NCBI GenBank assembly: GCA_029262295.1
Contig: JAJCZR010000035.1
Location: 1 to 64,000 of the forward strand
Direction: 5' to 3'
Origin: Deltaproteobacteria bacterium
GTDB taxonomy: Bacteria; Desulfobacterota_D; UBA1144; Nemesobacterales; Nemesobacteraceae
DNA length: 64,000 nt
A program made the translations under genes and the position numbers. The notes under the pieces were generated by a model that saw only the letters and a program-made list of their open reading frames with translations, was not told where the DNA came from and made no database searches. Every line of letters starts with the position of its first letter. The first letter of the stretch is position 1. Shown here piece by piece: positions 1 to 31,263 of this stretch.

Positions 1-516
1 AGTATTAGCTCCGGTATACCGGGAGGAGGAACTATATTCATAGACCTTCCTGATGATGTATTAGCTCTTGCAGCTAGTTTAGTACCAAACATAGCACCAT
101 GTGAAATAGTGGAAAGTCAGACAGCTAATATAGAAGATGCAGATGTGGTGTGTGACATACAAGACTTTCCATTTGAAATAGATGTAATACTAAACTTATG
201 TAGACAGGGAAATGTAAGTGGAGTGGCAGAAGCAGTAGTGGAAGTAATATCAGATGACAGGCCTGAAGAGAGTGCAGAAGAAACAATAGAAATACTGTTA
301 AATGATTTAGAGCTATGTCAGGCAACAGGAGATGGAGACGGAGAGCCAGAGCCGGGAGGAGATGGTGACAGCAGTGGTGATGGAGAAGGAGCAGGAAGTG
401 GATGCGCTATAGCACCTGCAAACACAACCAGTACAAACAGTGTATTGGTAACACTACTATCAGCAGTGGCAGGAATAGCGGGAGTGTTTTTTAGAAGAAG
501 AAAGCAGAATGCATGA
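1..516 (+). CDS. C-terminal part of a secreted/surface protein (5' truncated by window edge): conserved Cys-containing module, Gly/Asp/Glu-rich linker and C-terminal sorting tail GCAIAP..TM..FFRRRK
   Basis: Frame is open from base 1 (SISSGIPGGGTIFIDLPDDVLALAASLVPNIAPCEIVESQTANIEDADVVCDI...). The 140-170 aa region aligns with the C-terminus of the 25487..28111 protein. Confidence 0.8.
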   Translation, partial: SISSGIPGGGTIFIDLPDDVLALAASLVPNIAPCEIVESQTANIEDADVVCDIQDFPFEIDVILNLCRQGNVSGVAEAVVEVISDDRPEESAEETIEILLNDLELCQATGDGDGEPEPGGDGDSSGDGEGAGSGCAIAPANTTSTNSVLVTLLSAVAGIAGVFFRRRKQNA

Positions 517-1533: not shown

Positions 1534-2115
1534 GTGACTAGAATGGAATTAGAACTAAATAGTGATACTAAGAGACTAAGTTTTGATCAGGCTCTCAGAA
1601 CATTGCAGCAAAACCATATTCAGCTCAGCACAATGGCGGACATTAAAGCGAATATAATGATCACTGTCTGCTCTATTGTTCTGACATTTTCGCTAACACA
1701 GGTTTATAAACCTGTTTTGCAGATACACCTTTCTGTATTAATTACATTCACATTACTTGCACTTTTGCTTGCAGTATTAGCAGTGATCCCAAGTATGAAA
1801 AAACCTCTTGATAAGGATGGCAATCTCGATCAATCCTCATCTATGTTTAACCTTTTTTTCTTTATGCATTTTGATGAAATACCAAAAGATGATTTTATAG
1901 AAAAAATGAAAAAGGTATTGAATGACGATACTTTACTTTATGAACACATAATTGCCGATATCTATGGAAATGGAATTGCACTTTCCAGAAAAAAATACAG
2001 GCTTATAAGGTGGAGTTACCTGCTTTTTCTGGCAGGAATACTATTAAGTATTATCACTTTGGGTGTAGACATATTTTTGGGCAAATCAATCTTTTTATCA
2101 AATACATTAGGTTAA
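1534..2115 (+). CDS. Membrane protein resembling the Pycsar effector (PycTM/DUF5706) family
   Basis: N-terminal helix, then NHIQLSTMADIKANIMITVCSIVLTFSL (D-x-KAN TM motif), a second TM pair and C-terminal TMs. Family assignment by motif only. Confidence 0.55.
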   Translation: MTRMELELNSDTKRLSFDQALRTLQQNHIQLSTMADIKANIMITVCSIVLTFSLTQVYKPVLQIHLSVLITFTLLALLLAVLAVIPSMKKPLDKDGNLDQSSSMFNLFFFMHFDEIPKDDFIEKMKKVLNDDTLLYEHIIADIYGNGIALSRKKYRLIRWSYLLFLAGILLSIITLGVDIFLGKSIFLSNTLG

Positions 2116-2741: not shown

Positions 2742-3581
2742 TTACCATCCAAGCTTCTGAAAAAGCTTCTCTTTAAACTGCAAATAATCATCTGTAATTT
2801 CGGGCATAACCTGATTATTGATTTTTTTTACAAATGTAATTCCAGCAGAAGCGTTAGTAAGAAATGTAAAATCAGAATTAAGCAGATATGGAAGCTTAAA
2901 CTTCCTTTCATTAATCTCATAACCCAATTCAGGTGCTATATCTAAAACAATATCCCTTGTTATTCCTGAAAGTAGCCCGCAATTTAAAGAAGGTGTAAAA
3001 ATTGAAGTACCTCTCACCCAGAAAATGTTGGATGAAGAAGTCTCAACAATCTCATCATTAATATTGAGGAAAACGCAATCATCAAAACCTTTTTCAATAA
3101 CCTCTCTTCTTGCAAGAATATTCTCCATATAGTTAAATGACTTAACTGTATTAAGAGGCGAATTTTGATTTCTCTTGAATTTAGAAACGCAAAGTGAAAA
3201 TTCATTTTTTGTTTCTATATGTTTTTTTACAACAATCAACACAGATGACTTTTCAGGTTTTGAGTAAAAAAGGGTTTCTCCTTCGGAAACAAGGCAAAGC
3301 TTTACGTATGCATCTTGAATTTCGGTTTGAGCAACGGATGCAGCAATAGTTTCCTTTAATAGATCTTCATCGGGATAGGGTATATCAAAAAGCTCAGCAC
3401 TTTCTTTCAGTCGCTGAAAATGTTTATCAAGATAAACGGGAAGTGTTCCTTTATATCTAAACGTCTCAAAAACACCATCCCCATAAAATAAGGCCCTTGG
3501 AAAAAGTATTTTTTCAGACAAGTTGCCATTTACAAATATATACTCTCTCAATGTAGAAAAAAGTATATCATTTAAGAACAA
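2742..3581 (-). CDS. pabC: Aminotransferase class IV, probable 4-amino-4-deoxychorismate lyase
   Basis: PRALFYGDGVFETFRYKG...ETSSSNIFWVRG...GITRDIVLDIAPELGYEINERK; adjacent to pabB. Confidence 0.75.
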   Translation of the reverse strand: MFLNDILFSTLREYIFVNGNLSEKILFPRALFYGDGVFETFRYKGTLPVYLDKHFQRLKESAELFDIPYPDEDLLKETIAASVAQTEIQDAYVKLCLVSEGETLFYSKPEKSSVLIVVKKHIETKNEFSLCVSKFKRNQNSPLNTVKSFNYMENILARREVIEKGFDDCVFLNINDEIVETSSSNIFWVRGTSIFTPSLNCGLLSGITRDIVLDIAPELGYEINERKFKLPYLLNSDFTFLTNASAGITFVKKINNQVMPEITDDYLQFKEKLFQKLGW

Positions 3582-3583
3582 AA

Positions 3584-4807
3584 TTAACGATTATGTGTAG
3601 TTGTGATTATTGCTTTTGACTTTAATATTGTTTCATCATACTCACTCTTCGGATCTGAATCCCATACAATTCCTCCTCCAACCCAAAATGAAGACCCCTC
3701 TTTAGTGTTCACTTTCACTCTTATTGCAACGCTCATTGTAAAATCACCATCTGGTTTAATAAAGCAAATTGCCCCGCAATAAGGTCCTCTGTAATGAGGC
3801 TCAATTTCATCTATTATTTCAAGTGCCCTTCTTTTAGGTGCACCCGTCACTGATCCCGGAGGAAAAGTATTGTAGATTATCTCTGACAGAGTTAATCCAT
3901 CTTTCAAATTACCTTCAATTTCTGATTCCATCTGATAAAGGGTTTCGTAACCTTCCACTTCAAAAAGTTTATTTACTTTGATTGAACCATACTCGCAAAT
4001 TCTACCCAAATCATTCCTCATAAGATCAACTATCATTACATTCTCTGCCCTTTCTTTTATACTGCTTGCTAAAGATTTTTTAAGCATAACATCTGAGGTT
4101 TCATCTTCACCTCTTTTTGCTGTTCCCTTTATTGGTCTTGTAGTGATTTTATTCTTTTCCTTTCTCAGAAAAAGCTCCATTGAACCACTTAAGAGTTGAA
4201 ACTCATTAAAATCGATAAACGCAGAGTAAGGAACGGGCTGAGTTTTATATAATTTAAGAAAATAAGCTCTGGGATCTAAAATTGGATCTGAATAAAATCT
4301 TTGAGATAAATTCACCTGATATATATCCCCAGCGGCAATATATTCTTTTACTAAATTTACCTTTTTTAAATACTCTTCTTTTTTTATATTTGAGATGGGC
4401 CCAGAAACTTTATTTGAGTTAAATTCGATACTTTTATCAATAAAATATCCAATATCAGAATAAGGAATTTTTGATAGATCTTTTGGCTTATAAAAATGAA
4501 AATAGACCTGTGGAAATTTTGTCCCGTCTTTTTTTTCTGAGGTTTTGAAACCCCTGTTTGTATACTCAAGATAGTTATAACCTATATATCCAATTGCGTA
4601 ATAACCCTTTGATGTATATTCATCTAAAACTGCAATGGGATCAGCAGAAAAAATATGGTTTCTTTCATCTGAAAAAAGATGGATTTTGCTATTCAAAAAT
4701 CTAATGGAGAGATGTGGCTTCCCAAACAACATGGCAGTTGGTTTTTCTGAATTAAACCAACCACCACCAGAATCAATTAAAACAGAACTTATAATCTCTT
4801 TATTCAT
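3584..4807 (-). CDS. pabB: Aminodeoxychorismate synthase component I
   Basis: Chorismate-binding motifs (YQVNLSQRF, RPIKGTAKRG, MIVDLMRNDLGR, PPGSVTGAPKRRALEII). Start chosen at MNKE because the longer ORF start (4843) lies in a terminator hairpin. Confidence 0.88.
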   Translation of the reverse strand: MNKEIISSVLIDSGGGWFNSEKPTAMLFGKPHLSIRFLNSKIHLFSDERNHIFSADPIAVLDEYTSKGYYAIGYIGYNYLEYTNRGFKTSEKKDGTKFPQVYFHFYKPKDLSKIPYSDIGYFIDKSIEFNSNKVSGPISNIKKEEYLKKVNLVKEYIAAGDIYQVNLSQRFYSDPILDPRAYFLKLYKTQPVPYSAFIDFNEFQLLSGSMELFLRKEKNKITTRPIKGTAKRGEDETSDVMLKKSLASSIKERAENVMIVDLMRNDLGRICEYGSIKVNKLFEVEGYETLYQMESEIEGNLKDGLTLSEIIYNTFPPGSVTGAPKRRALEIIDEIEPHYRGPYCGAICFIKPDGDFTMSVAIRVKVNTKEGSSFWVGGGIVWDSDPKSEYDETILKSKAIITTTHNR

Positions 4808-22504: not shown

Positions 22505-25288
22505 TTAGTTCTCCTTTTTTTTGAAAATACTATCAAGCCCTTTTTCAATTAGTTTTTCGACAGGCTCTTTTTCAGTTTCTTGATCTTTTTCTTCCTGACC
22601 GCTTTCTTCAGGCCCGCCCTGCTTATCTTTTTTTTGGAAAGGTAAAACCTTTTCAATCCCGTCTTTTATAATATTATCCCCTTTTTCACCATTTTGGCTT
22701 TCAGGAGAAATTTGTTCAAAAAGTTTTTCCTTAAGCTTTCCTTTTCCTTCCTCTATTATTGCAGTTTGAATTTTCTTAGAGATAAAGTTTATATCAGGTT
22801 TTGGCCGGACTCCTGGAAGGTTTCCATCAAGTAAAAAAGGTATTTGAATTTTACCTTCAGAGTTTTTTAAGATGCCAATGTATTTTTGATTTGCTATAAG
22901 GTCATTAGAGAGTTTTTCAGAAAGGGTTACTACGCCGTCAATATCAAGAGCAGAATCGAGCCCGATTGAGCCGCCTCCATCCACAATATAGTTAGTTGCA
23001 TCAAGGAGAATATTATTAAGGTTGATCTTTCCTTTATCTATTTTAAAAGGCGATTTCATATTGTAAAAAACAGTGCTGCTTGTTTTGAATACATCGGGAT
23101 ATCTTTCACGAAGGTTTTGCGAGACAAGCCCTGAAAGTCCTTTTATTCCGGTTACCCCGGAGAGTACTTCTTCTGCAATATTAAAGTCGATGAGTTTTCC
23201 TTCTGTGAGTTCTATATTTCCAAGCCCGTCGAGCGTGTTTTTAATATCTTTCCACTCAGTGCCTGCTCCTGATATTTGGAGCTCAAGGTTTGTATTTCCA
23301 TTTATAGCGTTCGAATTTGGTGAAATAAATGTTTTAACAAGGTCTGTGATATTAAGCCCGCTTAGATTGGTATTAACTGTAAACTTGGGCACTTCACCCT
23401 GCATATTGTATTTTCCATTTGTCTTCAGCTTTGCAGTTAGAAAGTTAAAGCCAAGATCGCTGAAATCTATGATCTTGTTTTGCATGGTTATCTGACCGCC
23501 AAGGTTTTTATAGTTTATTTTTGAAAATTTTCCACTCTCAGAGCTAATAGTCGCTTTGCTTTGAATATCTCCATTTTTGTCAGATGCAGTTCCTTTTATA
23601 GTAAGGTTATTTATTACTTCTCCTTTATCAGCAGATTGGCTCAGATCGCTTAATTTTATTTCAGGTGCGCTGAGGGTGTAGTCTATGGATAATGGTTCAA
23701 GTGATTTAACATCTGCATTTAATGCTATATCAGAGTTTCCGATTTTCATTTTTGCATTATCAACCTTAGCGCTGTTTCCAGTGAAGTTGACTGTGCCATT
23801 TAAGTTTGAGATTGGTTTTGGAAGCTCTTTAATATTTGCAGCCACATTTTGAAGTGTCGCCTTTCCATTAATATTTGGTGTTTTGCCATCAGCAATTGAA
23901 CCCGTGAGTTTGGCATCTACAAGAATATTTCCTGATAGGCCATAATCTTTTAAAGCCAAAATATTATTGGATATTGATGAAAGGTCGGCAGAGTTTGTAT
24001 TGATATCAAGGTCTATATTTTGATCTTTGTCTGTGCCTATCTTACCTCCGGCTTTTGCTTTAAGATCGTTAAGAGTAAGCTCAGTGTTTTTAAGTAAAAT
24101 TGAGTTTTTTGAAACTACAGCATCAGTTGCAAGCTTCAAAGTATCGTTTTTTCCTTTTTTGAATTTATCACCAAGCACTATCTCGCTGCTACTTCCGTCA
24201 AACCTTATAAATAAAAGGTTAAGGTTTTCTTTATTTCCATTTACTTTTCCCGAAACGGAGATCGGGCCTTCTGCGTTTAAGTCTTTGGGAAAAGAACTTG
24301 CGATGGGCTCAAATTTTCTGAGGTTTTGAATGAGTACCGGATCAAGAGTGAAATCAAGATTAAGGTTTAACTTAAAATCAGGAAGCTCCTTGCCAAGTGG
24401 CCCTGCATTTCCTGAAACTTTAAGGTTTTGACTTTCTGAGCTAAAAACTGATGCGCCAATGTTAATATCTTTTAGTTCAAGCTCTCCTCCTGTGCCCGAT
24501 GCATTGAGTTTAAGATCAAGGTTGTTGCCAAGCCCCAGGCCTTCTGGAAGTGCTTTTGTAATCTCAGGAAAGTTCTTTTTAAGTTCAGATATATTAAGCC
24601 CGCTAATCTTAATGTCTGTATCTAATCTTGTTGTATTAATATCAAAGATCTCACCAATCGGGCCAGCTTCACCATTAATATTTATATTTTGGTTATCAGA
24701 AAGTAGCGCAAGTGAAAGATCAAACTTAATCGGTTTATCAAAACTTATATTTTTTGATTTAAGGTCTATTTTTATGGCATTTATTGTAGTGCCCTTTAAT
24801 AGATCGCTATAAGTTATTTCTCCGTTTGATATGTCTACAATTGATATAAGAAGATCTTCAATCGGGCTTTTCTTTTGGGTTTCTGATTCTTTTTTGTCTT
24901 TTGATAGTGATTCAAAGTTAAAATTGCCGGCTTTACTTTTTATTACATTTATCTTGGGTTTCACTAAAATCAGTTTTTTAACTTCAATCTCTTTTTGCAG
25001 AAGAGGAAGAAACTTAAGGCTCACAACAAGGTCATCCGCCTCAATAAAGTTATCTGTGGAAAACGCAGGATCATCACTTATTTTGAACTTTTCAAGTTTA
25101 AGTCCAAGCCCGCTCCATATATTCACCCCGATACTTTCAACTTCAACTTCTCTTCCCACCTGGTTTTCTATCTGTGCGAGTATAAGAACTTTATTTTTGT
25201 TTATAATTCCGTTTAAGTTGAGTAGTGCAAAGCCAACCAGACCTGCGATTAAAAGAAATAAAACTAATACCACTGCAATTATTCTCAT
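22505..25288 (-). CDS. AsmA family protein
   Basis: N-terminal TM, VGREVEVESIGVNIWSGLGLKLEKFKISDDPAF, long beta-repeat region, C-terminal AsmA_2-like ELTEGKLIDFNIAEEVL... Confidence 0.88.
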   Translation of the reverse strand: MRIIAVVLVLFLLIAGLVGFALLNLNGIINKNKVLILAQIENQVGREVEVESIGVNIWSGLGLKLEKFKISDDPAFSTDNFIEADDLVVSLKFLPLLQKEIEVKKLILVKPKINVIKSKAGNFNFESLSKDKKESETQKKSPIEDLLISIVDISNGEITYSDLLKGTTINAIKIDLKSKNISFDKPIKFDLSLALLSDNQNININGEAGPIGEIFDINTTRLDTDIKISGLNISELKKNFPEITKALPEGLGLGNNLDLKLNASGTGGELELKDINIGASVFSSESQNLKVSGNAGPLGKELPDFKLNLNLDFTLDPVLIQNLRKFEPIASSFPKDLNAEGPISVSGKVNGNKENLNLLFIRFDGSSSEIVLGDKFKKGKNDTLKLATDAVVSKNSILLKNTELTLNDLKAKAGGKIGTDKDQNIDLDINTNSADLSSISNNILALKDYGLSGNILVDAKLTGSIADGKTPNINGKATLQNVAANIKELPKPISNLNGTVNFTGNSAKVDNAKMKIGNSDIALNADVKSLEPLSIDYTLSAPEIKLSDLSQSADKGEVINNLTIKGTASDKNGDIQSKATISSESGKFSKINYKNLGGQITMQNKIIDFSDLGFNFLTAKLKTNGKYNMQGEVPKFTVNTNLSGLNITDLVKTFISPNSNAINGNTNLELQISGAGTEWKDIKNTLDGLGNIELTEGKLIDFNIAEEVLSGVTGIKGLSGLVSQNLRERYPDVFKTSSTVFYNMKSPFKIDKGKINLNNILLDATNYIVDGGGSIGLDSALDIDGVVTLSEKLSNDLIANQKYIGILKNSEGKIQIPFLLDGNLPGVRPKPDINFISKKIQTAIIEEGKGKLKEKLFEQISPESQNGEKGDNIIKDGIEKVLPFQKKDKQGGPEESGQEEKDQETEKEPVEKLIEKGLDSIFKKKEN

Positions 25289-25486: not shown

Positions 25487-28111
25487 ATGTTAGATTCAAT
25501 CTTTAAAACCAAGACTTTTGTTTTTTCTTTAATCTTTTTTCTTTGCATAGCTTCATCAAGTGCATTCGGAATCACCAGAACTGTCACAAATACTGATGAT
25601 GACGGAAATGGTTCTTTGAGAGATGCCATTGAAGACTCTAATAATGGTGATGTTATTGAGTTCGATCTGCCCGACGGTTCTACAATTTTGCTTAATGAAG
25701 AGATTGTCATTGAAGTTAGTATTACAATAAACGGCCCTGGTGCTGATAAGCTCACAATTAATGGTGATGATGATGGTTTTCCGATCTTCGAAATATTTAG
25801 TGATGGGGAGATTACAGTAAATATAAATGGGCTTAGATTTTTAAATGGAGCTTCATTCATTGGTGGAGCAATAATTAATACCGAAAATCTTAATATAGAT
25901 TCCTGTGTTTTTGAAGAAAACTTTGCTTTTATTGGAGGTGCTATATTCAATGGTAACCCGGAAGAGCCGGCTGAAAATTGCACATTAAATATTACTAACA
26001 CGGTATTCAGAAGTAATTTTGCTGGCATTGGAGGGGCTATTTTAAATGTTGGCACAATTGAAACTATAGATAACTGCCAGTTTTTTGGAAATAGTGCTAA
26101 TTCTGAAGCACTGTTTTCTATGGGGGATAACTTTCAAACAGCTAATTTTGGATTTGGAACAGGCTTTGGAAATGGGGGAGCAATTGCCAATGTTTTCCCT
26201 GAGGATTTCATTCCAACCGCTAATTCTCAAACTGCTAATGGCGGGCAGCCATCAAACGGTGTTATTGAGCTTATAACCAACTCATTTTTTGAGAATAACA
26301 ATGCAGTTTCTAATAATAATTTTAGCTGCAATGATTTACAAATTGCTAATAATGGCAATTCATCCGGCGGGTATGGTGGGGCAATATTTAACTCGGCTTT
26401 TATCGATGTTGTAGAGCGCTCCACTTTCATTGATAATGATGCAATCATCTTGGATAATGAACCTAATATTATTTGTTCCTTTAACTCTCGGACTGCAAAT
26501 GAAGGCGGCCCTGGAATTTCCGAGGGAGGCGCTATTTTCAGCTCAAATACTTTACACCTCATAAGAAACTCAACTTTTTTTGAAAATGAAGCGGATAATG
26601 GAGCTGCTATTTATATATCTGGTAATAATTTTCACGGTGACGGTGATGGAGATGGAGACGGTGATTCTGAATTAATGAGTACACTCATAGATTTCACAAC
26701 AATCACAAGCAACCAGACAACAGATCAAGTCGGAGATGAAAACAGCAGACAGACTGCATATGTACTTGGTCCGTCTGTAGGGGGGATTGCGACAGCTAAT
26801 GGCGGAATTGTAGGTCTATCGAGAAGTATTGTTGCCAATCAGATAAGTGGTTTTGACTGTGATGAAGGAGTTGTTTCACTTGGAAATAATATTGACAGTG
26901 ACGGCACTTGTACTGACGGTGTTGCAAATGATCAAACTACCGACCCTGGGCTTGATCCCAATGGTCCTCAAAATAATGGAGGGTTTACTCCCACAATTGC
27001 CCTTTTACCTGGGAGTAATGCGATAGATGAAGTGGATTGTGATTCTGCAGATATATTCGTTTTAGATTCACATGGGGAGGTTTTTTGCGAACCTGTTAAT
27101 CATGATCAAAGAGGCTTTAACAGGCCGGTAGATGGCGACGATTCAGATGGCCCTGAGGATGATATAGGAGCATATGAGGTTCAGGATGAAGCGAAGGCAA
27201 TAGTATCAAAAGTAACTGATCCGGAAGGAGAAACAGGTTTCCTATTTGAAGTATTAAGAATGGGCGACCCAACAATAGTGATCACAAGGTTTATCCTTGA
27301 TGATGGTGAAATGGATATGACTATCATCCCAACCGGTGAAATTACAATAAGAGAAGATGTTCCAGAAGATTTTGACGTGACAATTGTTTGCAGCGATTCA
27401 GAGACTTTTACTGAACCAGAAGTAGATAATGGTGCAGGTACTGCGGATGTTACCATTTTTTCAGACGAGGAAACCCTTGTATGCGAATTTACCAACACCT
27501 TTAATCCTAGCACAGGCGGTGGTGGCACCGGCGGTGGTGCTGAAGATGAAGATATTGATATTGATCCCGGAAATGATGGTCCGTTTGCAGAAATAAGCGT
27601 AAGCTCCGGAATACCAGGTGGCGGAACTATACTTATAGATCTTCCTGATGAAGTGTTGGCGTTAGCTGCTAGTTTAATACCAGACATATCTTCTTGCGAG
27701 ATATTAAACCCGGGAACACAAACTGCTAATATAGAAAACCCGGATGTCAGATGTGATATAGATGATTTTCCATTTGATATAGATGTGATTCTGGATCTTT
27801 GCAGGCAAGGAAATGTGAGTGGAGTGGCGGATGCGATAGTTGAGGTAATATCAGATGACAGACCTGAGGAAACAGCGGAGGAGATTGTGGAAATAGCCCT
27901 TGATCAGCTAGCAGCATGTCAGGTGACTGGTGATGGTGACGGCGATGGTGATGGAGACGGTGATGGCGACGGCGGCGAGGGCGATGGTGATGGCGGAAGC
28001 AGTGGATGTTCAATAGCGCCAACAAATACAAGTAACATTAGTAACTTATTTGTAACGCTAATATCTACGTTAGTTGGTATTACAGTACTGTTTTTCAGAA
28101 GAAGAAAGTAA
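25487..28111 (+). CDS. Secreted right-handed beta-helix protein with CSLREA-like N-terminus, DIGAYE motif, SpaA/prealbumin-like domain, Cys-containing module and C-terminal sorting signal
   Basis: Signal peptide, TVTNTDDDGNGSLRDAIEDSNNGDVIEFDL, GGAIxN repeats, DDIGAYEVQDEAKAIVSKVTDPEG..., (GD)n linker, SSGCSIAPTNTSNISNLFVTLISTLVGITVLFFRRRK. Confidence 0.88.
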   Translation: MLDSIFKTKTFVFSLIFFLCIASSSAFGITRTVTNTDDDGNGSLRDAIEDSNNGDVIEFDLPDGSTILLNEEIVIEVSITINGPGADKLTINGDDDGFPIFEIFSDGEITVNINGLRFLNGASFIGGAIINTENLNIDSCVFEENFAFIGGAIFNGNPEEPAENCTLNITNTVFRSNFAGIGGAILNVGTIETIDNCQFFGNSANSEALFSMGDNFQTANFGFGTGFGNGGAIANVFPEDFIPTANSQTANGGQPSNGVIELITNSFFENNNAVSNNNFSCNDLQIANNGNSSGGYGGAIFNSAFIDVVERSTFIDNDAIILDNEPNIICSFNSRTANEGGPGISEGGAIFSSNTLHLIRNSTFFENEADNGAAIYISGNNFHGDGDGDGDGDSELMSTLIDFTTITSNQTTDQVGDENSRQTAYVLGPSVGGIATANGGIVGLSRSIVANQISGFDCDEGVVSLGNNIDSDGTCTDGVANDQTTDPGLDPNGPQNNGGFTPTIALLPGSNAIDEVDCDSADIFVLDSHGEVFCEPVNHDQRGFNRPVDGDDSDGPEDDIGAYEVQDEAKAIVSKVTDPEGETGFLFEVLRMGDPTIVITRFILDDGEMDMTIIPTGEITIREDVPEDFDVTIVCSDSETFTEPEVDNGAGTADVTIFSDEETLVCEFTNTFNPSTGGGGTGGGAEDEDIDIDPGNDGPFAEISVSSGIPGGGTILIDLPDEVLALAASLIPDISSCEILNPGTQTANIENPDVRCDIDDFPFDIDVILDLCRQGNVSGVADAIVEVISDDRPEETAEEIVEIALDQLAACQVTGDGDGDGDGDGDGDGGEGDGDGGSSGCSIAPTNTSNISNLFVTLISTLVGITVLFFRRRK
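27928..28003 (+). repeat. In-frame GGTGAY hexanucleotide microsatellite encoding a (GD)n linker
   Basis: GGTGATGGTGACGGCGATGGTGATGGAGACGGTGATGGCGACGGC...GGCGATGGTGATGGC. Confidence 0.8.
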
Positions 28112-28143
28112 AACTCATAAAAGTCTAAAAAAGATAGTAAATG

Positions 28144-28177
28144 AAAAGGGCTTGCCATTATGGTAAGCCCTTTTTTA
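28144..28177 (+). terminator. Rho-independent terminator of the beta-helix gene
   Basis: AAAAGGGCTTGCC-ATTAT-GGTAAGCCCTTTT followed by T-rich sequence. Confidence 0.9.
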
Positions 28178-28320: not shown

Positions 28321-31263
28321 ATGAAAAAATCAAAAATTCTCAGAATTATTCTAATTGTATTTCTATCTTTAGCTGTACTTTATACGGCATTTGGGTTTTT
28401 AGTATTACCTAAAATAGTTAAGTCACAGCTTACCTCAAGAATCTCAGAGTTTACTCAAAGTAATGTGGAGCTTCGGGATGTAGATACAAATCCGTTATTT
28501 TTAACTGCGTCGCTTAAAGACTTTAAACTCAGCAGGGAAAATAATGAGATAATCTCGTTTAAAGACCTGCTGATTAATTTTAGTATAAGTTCTATTGTAA
28601 AAAGGTCTTTAAACTTCTCTGAAATTAAGCTTACAGAGCCTTTTATTAATCTTCAGATTTCTTCTGAGGGGAAATTAAACCTTCTGGATCTTGCCCCCAA
28701 ATCGGAAGATAAAGAGGATAAAAAAGAAAAAAAAGATGATGGAATTTTTCCACTCCTTATAAAAGAAATCACATTTGATAGGGGAAACATTCTCTTTCAG
28801 GATTTTTCAAATAAAACTCCTTACAGAAGCGATATTAAAGCTTTAAGCTTCACTTTAAAAAACCTTTCTACCATTCCAAATGAAGAGGGAGTGTATGAAC
28901 TTGATGCTAATTTGAATGAAAATGGAATTATTAACTGGAACGGCACTCTTGAACTAAATCCCGTGAGATCAGAAGGAACAATTAAATTTGATAAGATTAA
29001 TACGCATAATATATGGGAATACATTCAAGACAGAGTCAATTTTATTGTAAAAGAAGGTAGCCTTGATATAAATGCTGAATATTCTCTTGATTTTTCAGGT
29101 GATGAGAGAGAATTTAGATTTAAAAATAGTGAAATGTCGCTCACCGCACTGTCAATACTTGCAAAAGAAAGTAACGAGGAAGTTGTTTCAATTCCTTCTC
29201 TTTTAGTTAGCGGAATAGATTTTGATATTCAAAAGAAAAAACTCGACATTTCTAAAGTCGATACTTCAAACGGAAACGTGTTTGCAAAGATTGATGAAGA
29301 TGGGGTGATAAATTTTAAAAAGCTGGTTAATAATAAAAATCCTGAGAAAATTGAAGACAGCGATTCAAATAAAAAAGTAGAAAAAATTGATAATAAAAAA
29401 CCAAAGATTGATCTCAATATAGGTGAGATAGGAGTTTCGGGCTACAATGTGAATTTTGAAGATAATAGCCTCAGTAATAAAACCCAGATCAAACTCGGCC
29501 CTACTAATATTAACATTAAAAACTTCAGTCTTGTTAAATCGGAGAGCCCTTTAACAGTTGATACCGTTCTTAATGAAGCCGGAAAGATTAATATTAATGG
29601 AGTGATTAATACACCTGGTTTTACTTCTGATTTGAAGCTCGACTTTTCAAAAATTCCTCTTAATCCCTTTGAGCCATATATAGATGAGTTTGCAGAAATT
29701 GATGTAGAAGGTGGAAATCTTTCTCTTACCGGAGATCTTATAAACCAGTTTGAACAAGATAAAAGAAATATTAAATTCAACGGCAACCTTAATGTGGATT
29801 CAACAATGATTAAACAAGCTGGAAATAAAGACGACCTTTTCCGCTGGGCAGATCTAAGAGTTGCAGAAGCAGAGTTTGATCTAATTGCGCGTAGTTTAAG
29901 TATAAAAAAAATAGATGTTGATAAGCTTTATTCTAATGTGGTTATAGATGTGAATGGAAAAGTTAATCTTAAAAGTATAGTTAAAAGCGATACAGACAAA
30001 GTTAAGAAAGAAGAAAAAATAGAATCTAAAAAAACCGATAAACCTGATAACAAAAAAGATAAATTTGTAACTGAAATTGGTAAAGTCAACCTTAGTGACG
30101 GTGAGCTTTACTTTTCAGACCTTTCATTAGAACCCGTGTTTAAGACCAACATACAAGAGCTCGAAGTGACTTTAACTGGATTATCTTCTAAAGATTTGAA
30201 AACAGCTAAAATTGATCTGAAAGGGAAGATTGATAAATATGCTCCTGTTAAAATTACAGGTGAGGTAAATCCCCTGGGAGACAAAACTCAGACTGATATT
30301 GATGTAAATATCGAAGGGGTGGAGCTTACAAACTTAAGTTCCTATTCAGGTAAATATGTGGGTTATAGAATGGGTAGGGGAAAACTTAGTCTTGATCTTG
30401 AATATGTACTCAACGAAAAACTGCTTGATGGAAAGAATAAGATAGTTTTTGATCAGATTAAACTTGGAGATAAGGTGCAGAGTCCAGATGCAAAAGATCT
30501 CCCGCTTGAGCTTGCAATTAGCTTATTAAAAGACAGAAGCGGTGCAGTGAAACTAGATTTTCCGGTGAGCGGAGATCCGACTGATCCTAAATTCAATGTC
30601 TCTGAAATAATATTTAAGACTTTTTTCAACCTCATATTTAAAGCTGTAACTTCTCCTTTTTCAATCCTTGGATCAGTGGTTGGTATATTCGGGGGCGGTG
30701 AGGAGCTTAGCTATGTAAGTTTTGAACCTGGCTCATCCAAAGTAACAGATAAAGAAAAAAAGGAGCTTGGGGAGCTCTTAAAAGCTTTATCCGAAAGGCC
30801 AAATTTAAAACTTGATATTAAGGGTGTTGCATATAATGAAATCGACAGGCTTGGCCTTGCTGAAATGCAGATAATAAACTCTGTAAGAGATGATGATGAG
30901 CAAAATTCGGATAAGCCTCTAACTGAGGATGAAATGGAAGATATTCTTGAGATCTATGAAAATGATTATGGTGTTGATCCTTTAGATAAAGTGCCGGAAG
31001 AAGATGCAAACGGAAAAGATATTCCGAAAGCTGAGAAAATCCGCATTGCTTATAATAACTCGATTGGTCAGCTAAAGGATTTTGAGACGGTTAAGGACAG
31101 TGAGATGATTGATCTTGCCAAGAGAAGAGCTGATTCGATCAGGGATTTTCTAACAAATAAAGAGATGATTGACCAAAGTAGAATATTTACTCTTGATCCT
31201 TCTATTGAAAGTGCTGAGTCTGCTGAAGGAGTGAGAGTTCCATTGGGTCTTGATACTTTTTAA
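28321..31263 (+). CDS. DUF748 / AsmA-like envelope protein with C-terminal OmpA-like region
   Basis: N-terminal TM, repeated DUF748-like blocks (FVTEIGKVNLSDGELYFSDLSLEP), YVSFEPGSSKVTDKEKKELGELLKAL...LAKRRADSIRDFLTNKEMIDQSRIF. Confidence 0.85.
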   Translation: MKKSKILRIILIVFLSLAVLYTAFGFLVLPKIVKSQLTSRISEFTQSNVELRDVDTNPLFLTASLKDFKLSRENNEIISFKDLLINFSISSIVKRSLNFSEIKLTEPFINLQISSEGKLNLLDLAPKSEDKEDKKEKKDDGIFPLLIKEITFDRGNILFQDFSNKTPYRSDIKALSFTLKNLSTIPNEEGVYELDANLNENGIINWNGTLELNPVRSEGTIKFDKINTHNIWEYIQDRVNFIVKEGSLDINAEYSLDFSGDEREFRFKNSEMSLTALSILAKESNEEVVSIPSLLVSGIDFDIQKKKLDISKVDTSNGNVFAKIDEDGVINFKKLVNNKNPEKIEDSDSNKKVEKIDNKKPKIDLNIGEIGVSGYNVNFEDNSLSNKTQIKLGPTNINIKNFSLVKSESPLTVDTVLNEAGKININGVINTPGFTSDLKLDFSKIPLNPFEPYIDEFAEIDVEGGNLSLTGDLINQFEQDKRNIKFNGNLNVDSTMIKQAGNKDDLFRWADLRVAEAEFDLIARSLSIKKIDVDKLYSNVVIDVNGKVNLKSIVKSDTDKVKKEEKIESKKTDKPDNKKDKFVTEIGKVNLSDGELYFSDLSLEPVFKTNIQELEVTLTGLSSKDLKTAKIDLKGKIDKYAPVKITGEVNPLGDKTQTDIDVNIEGVELTNLSSYSGKYVGYRMGRGKLSLDLEYVLNEKLLDGKNKIVFDQIKLGDKVQSPDAKDLPLELAISLLKDRSGAVKLDFPVSGDPTDPKFNVSEIIFKTFFNLIFKAVTSPFSILGSVVGIFGGGEELSYVSFEPGSSKVTDKEKKELGELLKALSERPNLKLDIKGVAYNEIDRLGLAEMQIINSVRDDDEQNSDKPLTEDEMEDILEIYENDYGVDPLDKVPEEDANGKDIPKAEKIRIAYNNSIGQLKDFETVKDSEMIDLAKRRADSIRDFLTNKEMIDQSRIFTLDPSIESAESAEGVRVPLGLDTF

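Follow-up and report, generated by a model that had tools for sequence, protein, structure and literature searches.

To our knowledge, MYXO-CTERM, JDVT-CTERM and Synerg-CTERM are among the very few Cys-type C-terminal signals that are tied to CPBP proteases. In the MYXO-CTERM system, cleavage by MrtX depends on the Cys, and the model requires type II secretion (PMC11980579). We propose that two proteins encoded in the 64,000-nucleotide stretch of deltaproteobacterial DNA analysed here (the window) are substrates of a Cys-type, MYXO-CTERM-like C-terminal sorting system that uses a CPBP protease encoded on contig C78, with a four-Cys module serving as a stalk, and we give this reading a probability of roughly 0.7. 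It draws on the module, the tail, 17 candidate substrates, a protease with its catalytic motifs and GspD plus a GspE relative, together with the absence of other sorting proteases and the co-distribution of tail and protease in related genomes. Judged from its sequences, the system appears to work like MYXO-CTERM/myxosortase and yet to lie outside all the named Cys-type families, of tails and of proteases, that were tested.

Contig C35 begins at base 1 of the window, and the first open frame (1-516, + strand, 171 aa), which has no DNA upstream of it, belongs to a gene truncated by the contig edge, of which the window contains the 3' end. Its product consists of a four-Cys module, then a linker rich in Gly and Asp, and finally a tripartite tail (GSGCAIAPANTTSTNSVLVTLLSAVAGIAGVFFRRRK). 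The module, whose N-terminal part is missing at the contig start, occupies positions 1-321 (+), with Cys residues at 34, 51, 67 and 106 of the fragment; it is followed by a Gly/Asp/Glu-rich linker (322-393, +) and by the tail (394-513, +), which runs from GSGCAIAP through a hydrophobic stretch to FFRRRK and has its invariant Cys codon at 403-405. The second protein, a predicted surface protein of 874 aa (25487-28111, +), has a probable Sec signal peptide MLDSIFKTKTFVFSLIFFLCIASSSAFG and a repeat or beta-helix-like region, both judged by reading the sequence, and then a choice-of-anchor Q domain (26945-27184, +; NF041518, residues 487-566, 45.2 bits against a cut-off of 25). It ends in the same module, linker and tail. 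Here the module begins about 10 residues N-terminal of SSGIPGGG (PFAEISV..., window position 27587) and spans 27587-27922 (+), followed by a (Gly-Asp)n linker (27923-27997, +) and the tail SSGCSIAP...FFRRRK (27998-28108, +; invariant Cys codon 28007-28009). The two products align over 170 residues at 68% identity (E = 8.6e-71), which excludes a chance likeness of the C-termini and confirms the original prediction that they share a Cys-containing module and a Cys-type tail. A terminator-like hairpin lies 3' of the second gene (28143-28175, +), but it is weak evidence because chance alone predicts about as many sites in the scanned stretch.

The gene at 25487-28111 is flanked on either side by genes for large AsmA-superfamily proteins (22505-25288, -, and 28321-31263, +), the types being YhdP/AsmA-like and DUF748 with an OmpA-like end. 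Near the start of the window, 1534-2115 (+) matches the Pycsar effector family PycTM (PF18967, E 3.9e-21), a possible anti-phage effector, and is adjoined by a PIN-domain gene (2116-2493, -).

The 2.2 Mb assembly, which is 98.8% complete, was searched for both elements with the fragment as query and subsequently with profiles. The tail is found on 17 genes, and seven of their products are without the module. Its layout is a G-[GS]-G-C-[SA]-I-A motif, a hydrophobic helix and an RRR/K end, with the consensus GGGCSIA...N..V.L.P...GI....FRRR and a single invariant Cys. The domains that precede it include choice-of-anchor Q and choice-of-anchor I, EGF repeats, DUF11, DUF4331, right-handed beta-helices and a prealbumin-like SpaA_4 domain. 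The name of the "choice-of-anchor" domains reflects their occurrence with different C-terminal anchors, and the fused domains therefore fit the company of a sorting signal. In the order as a whole, most genomes encode proteins with this kind of tail (GxCAIA, GxCSIA).

Two CPBP proteases are encoded in the genome, on contigs C78 and C65. The C78 protease matches PF02517, and its EExxxR and HxxxN motifs are intact; EExxFR, H and HxxxN show no variation among its orthologs (30 of 30). Its score is 68.1 bits with Mrt_core, short of the curated cut-off of 100 bits (NF040914), 68.5 with MrtP and 65.9 with MrtS; a generic ABC/CPBP model gives 33. For the C65 protease, no Mrt model gives more than 32 bits. 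Mrt_core is matched in 34 of 61 genomes, in none of them above the cut-off. The search for a co-occurring processing enzyme thus yielded a CPBP protease whose nearest models are those of the myxosortases. On contig C78, about 3 kb (2.8 kb) separate a tail gene whose N-terminus is off the contig (2-241) from the protease gene (3002-3610), and this interval contains one gene without a Pfam match and one FG-GAP/UnbV gene; the protease gene is followed by one short frame and then NAD synthase. Six relatives have a tail gene some 15-17 kb from the protease gene, in conserved gene order. In the order, the conserved neighbourhood of the Mrt-like protease comprises an FG-GAP/UnbV protein, a GMC oxidoreductase, which comes with a gluconate-dehydrogenase-3-like subunit, and NAD synthase (L116-L121, L124). 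The genome also encodes a GspD secretin that scores above its cut-off and an adjoining GspE relative; these type II secretion genes fit the MYXO-CTERM model, which requires them (PMC11980579).

Among 58 genomes of the class, tails and any CPBP protease occur together in 36, a CPBP protease alone in 3, tails alone in 2 and neither in 17; when only strong Mrt matches are counted, the corresponding numbers are 29, 3, 9 and 17. The Mrt-like protease itself is present in 32 of the 58. The 17 double absences are not independent events, because 14 of them fall in a single family whose genomes are of ~1 Mb. Restricted to the order, the association between strong Mrt matches and tails is not significant (Fisher p = 0.32). 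Exceptions to the pairing are mostly incomplete or fragmented assemblies. The original prediction that the tail is a Cys-type sorting signal is well backed: copies recur within the genome and in relatives, a plausible protease and type II secretion genes are encoded, and the phyletic profile agrees.

How does this pair compare with the named systems? The likeness to MYXO-CTERM and MrtX (TIGR03901, NF040593) extends to the tripartite tail with its invariant Cys, hydrophobic helix and Arg-rich end, to a CPBP intramembrane protease, to many substrates per genome and to the type II secretion genes. However, the tail has the motif G-x-C-[SA]-I-A and reaches only 13.9 bits on TIGR03901 against a cut-off of 20, and the C78 protease 33.1 bits on NF040593 against 180. 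JDVT-CTERM (NF033191, NF033192 with MrtJ) also has the invariant Cys and is the model that the tails match most often (14 of the 23 from across the order, all weakly, best E 3e-4), but the window tail scores 14.1 bits against 27 on NF033191 and the C78 protease 41.1 against 75 on MrtJ, and the 17 substrates here stand against one dedicated two-gene pair there. MrtS (NF040589) and MrtP (NF040674) are matched by the C78 protease at about the Mrt_core level but below their cut-offs of 130 and 250 bits. Synerg-CTERM is matched by a single one of the 23 tails (E 0.19). Because all tested Cys-type tail and protease cut-offs were missed, we file neither the tail nor the protease under any named family. 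GlyGly-CTERM shares the Gly-rich motif, the helix and the basic end, but it differs in that the tail here has an invariant Cys and rhombosortase is absent from the genome. An LPXTG/sortase assignment was also considered, as TIGR01167 scores 16.7 bits against a cut-off of 15.9, but over the helix and Arg part only; the match was rejected because no LPXTG motif is covered, and PF04203 (sortase) has no match in the genome. A PEP-CTERM/exosortase assignment was ruled out, as the genome has no PF09721 match.

We hypothesize the following pathway. The signal peptide would direct export by Sec, after which the C-terminal helix would hold the protein in the inner membrane, its Gly-Cys motif lying immediately outside. 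The tail Cys would probably be lipidated, and the C78 CPBP intramembrane glutamic protease would cut next to it. The type II secretion system would then bring the protein, anchored by its lipid, to the cell surface. Lipidation, cleavage and surface location are all modelled on the MYXO-CTERM precedent.

The module is carried by 10 genes in the genome, one of them divided between contigs C6 and C26. It occurs in only 2 of 387 genomes searched, the second being Deltaproteobacteria bacterium isolate OFTM105 (a MAG, accession JAJCZQ010000017.1) from another family of the same order; its one module protein also has the module directly before the tail. Three further weak matches were dismissed: an S-adenosylhomocysteine hydrolase in genome G312, an interrupted frame in G213 and a 96-aa frame on contig C48 of the OFTM105 assembly. 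In all 11 known copies the Cys is invariant at four positions, and all 11 proteins have the tail at the C-terminus with the module directly in front of it. The 10 copies have no Pfam match, and the module has no NCBIfam match and no PDB sequence match, so within these libraries it can still be called an undescribed family of surface modules, albeit one of very narrow distribution. AlphaFold, run on alignments of two and then three sequences, gave a mean pLDDT of 37-39 and no usable model. On sequence grounds we regard the module as a domain family that is narrowly distributed and not yet catalogued, and probably as a separate, disulfide-bonded extracellular domain that lies between the anchor and the functional domains. 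Its fixed position next to the anchor and its invariant cysteines favour a role as a stable membrane-proximal stalk or spacer, which we infer to be the most likely one.

One module gene also bears possible marks of exchange. The gene on contig C33 (L132:4376-6883) has a module closest to that of window 1-516 (86% DNA identity), whereas its tail is closest to that of a gene on contig C69 (85%, against 70% to the window copy). This mosaic suggests that the tail has been exchanged between paralogs, and that modules and tails move independently of each other. Contigs break inside module genes at position 1 of C6, position 2 of C26 and position 1 of the window, as would be expected where near-identical paralogs confuse assembly; the first gene of the window may have its missing 5' part on another contig end.

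Each element can be read differently. The tail might be an uncut C-terminal membrane anchor that leaves the proteins in the inner membrane, facing the periplasm, since a helix followed by RRR (positive-inside) suffices as a stop-transfer; furthermore, two genomes of about 90% completeness, G013 and G014, have tail matches and no detected CPBP protease (in G013, which is 90% complete in 7 contigs, five weak tail matches and no CPBP match). We nevertheless consider this quite unlikely, as such an anchor would account poorly for the invariant Cys, for the retention of G-x-C-[SA]-[IL]-A across the order while the helix sequence varies, for fused domains that are typical of surface proteins, and for the fact that related genomes without any CPBP protease are nearly all without the tail. 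It is highly improbable, in our judgement, that the tail is cut by the GlpG-like rhomboid or by the C65 protease and not by the C78 protease, even though both enzymes are encoded in the genome and the tails are Gly-rich as in GlyGly-CTERM. The single clear rhomboid weakly matches only GlpG, below the cut-off, no rhombosortase model has a match in the genome, and in most same-family relatives with tails the Mrt-like enzyme is the sole CPBP protease.

For the module, descent from a DUF11-type (Ig-like) domain, in place of a new family, is possible though we think it doubtful. Both share a similar spacing, LP..V....C....VxC.I...P, and a similar strand pattern, and DUF11 domains are present in other tail proteins of the genome; hhalign aligns two Cys of the module with a DUF11 profile, but at chance level (E = 0.098, probability 0.6%) and with a profile built from three distinct sequences only. 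Against this, PF01345 matches none of the 10 copies, and the module differs from DUF11 in two additional Cys and in a probable helix at its C-terminal end, which contains the fourth. A module that is recognised by the machinery of sorting or of type II secretion would accord with its invariable place before the tail, in some copies ending only 6-7 residues from the tail Cys, but the module is missing from the seven other tail proteins here and from nearly all tail proteins of relatives, and we regard such a function as very unlikely.

The sorting pathway is likely to be lineage-specific. We lean slightly towards the view that an unnamed Cys-type system, made up of a G-x-C-[SA]-I-A tail and its own CPBP subfamily, serves the whole order, and that one lineage within it added and multiplied the four-Cys module family. 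The module has no curated model yet and could be added to domain libraries, and with the tail as a marker, surface proteins of a little-studied order can be catalogued from sequence alone. We know of no enzyme shown to carry out the lipidation in Cys-type C-terminal sorting. A further, phylogenetically separate tail and protease pair with many substrates would provide an independent data set for the phyletic profiling of that enzyme.
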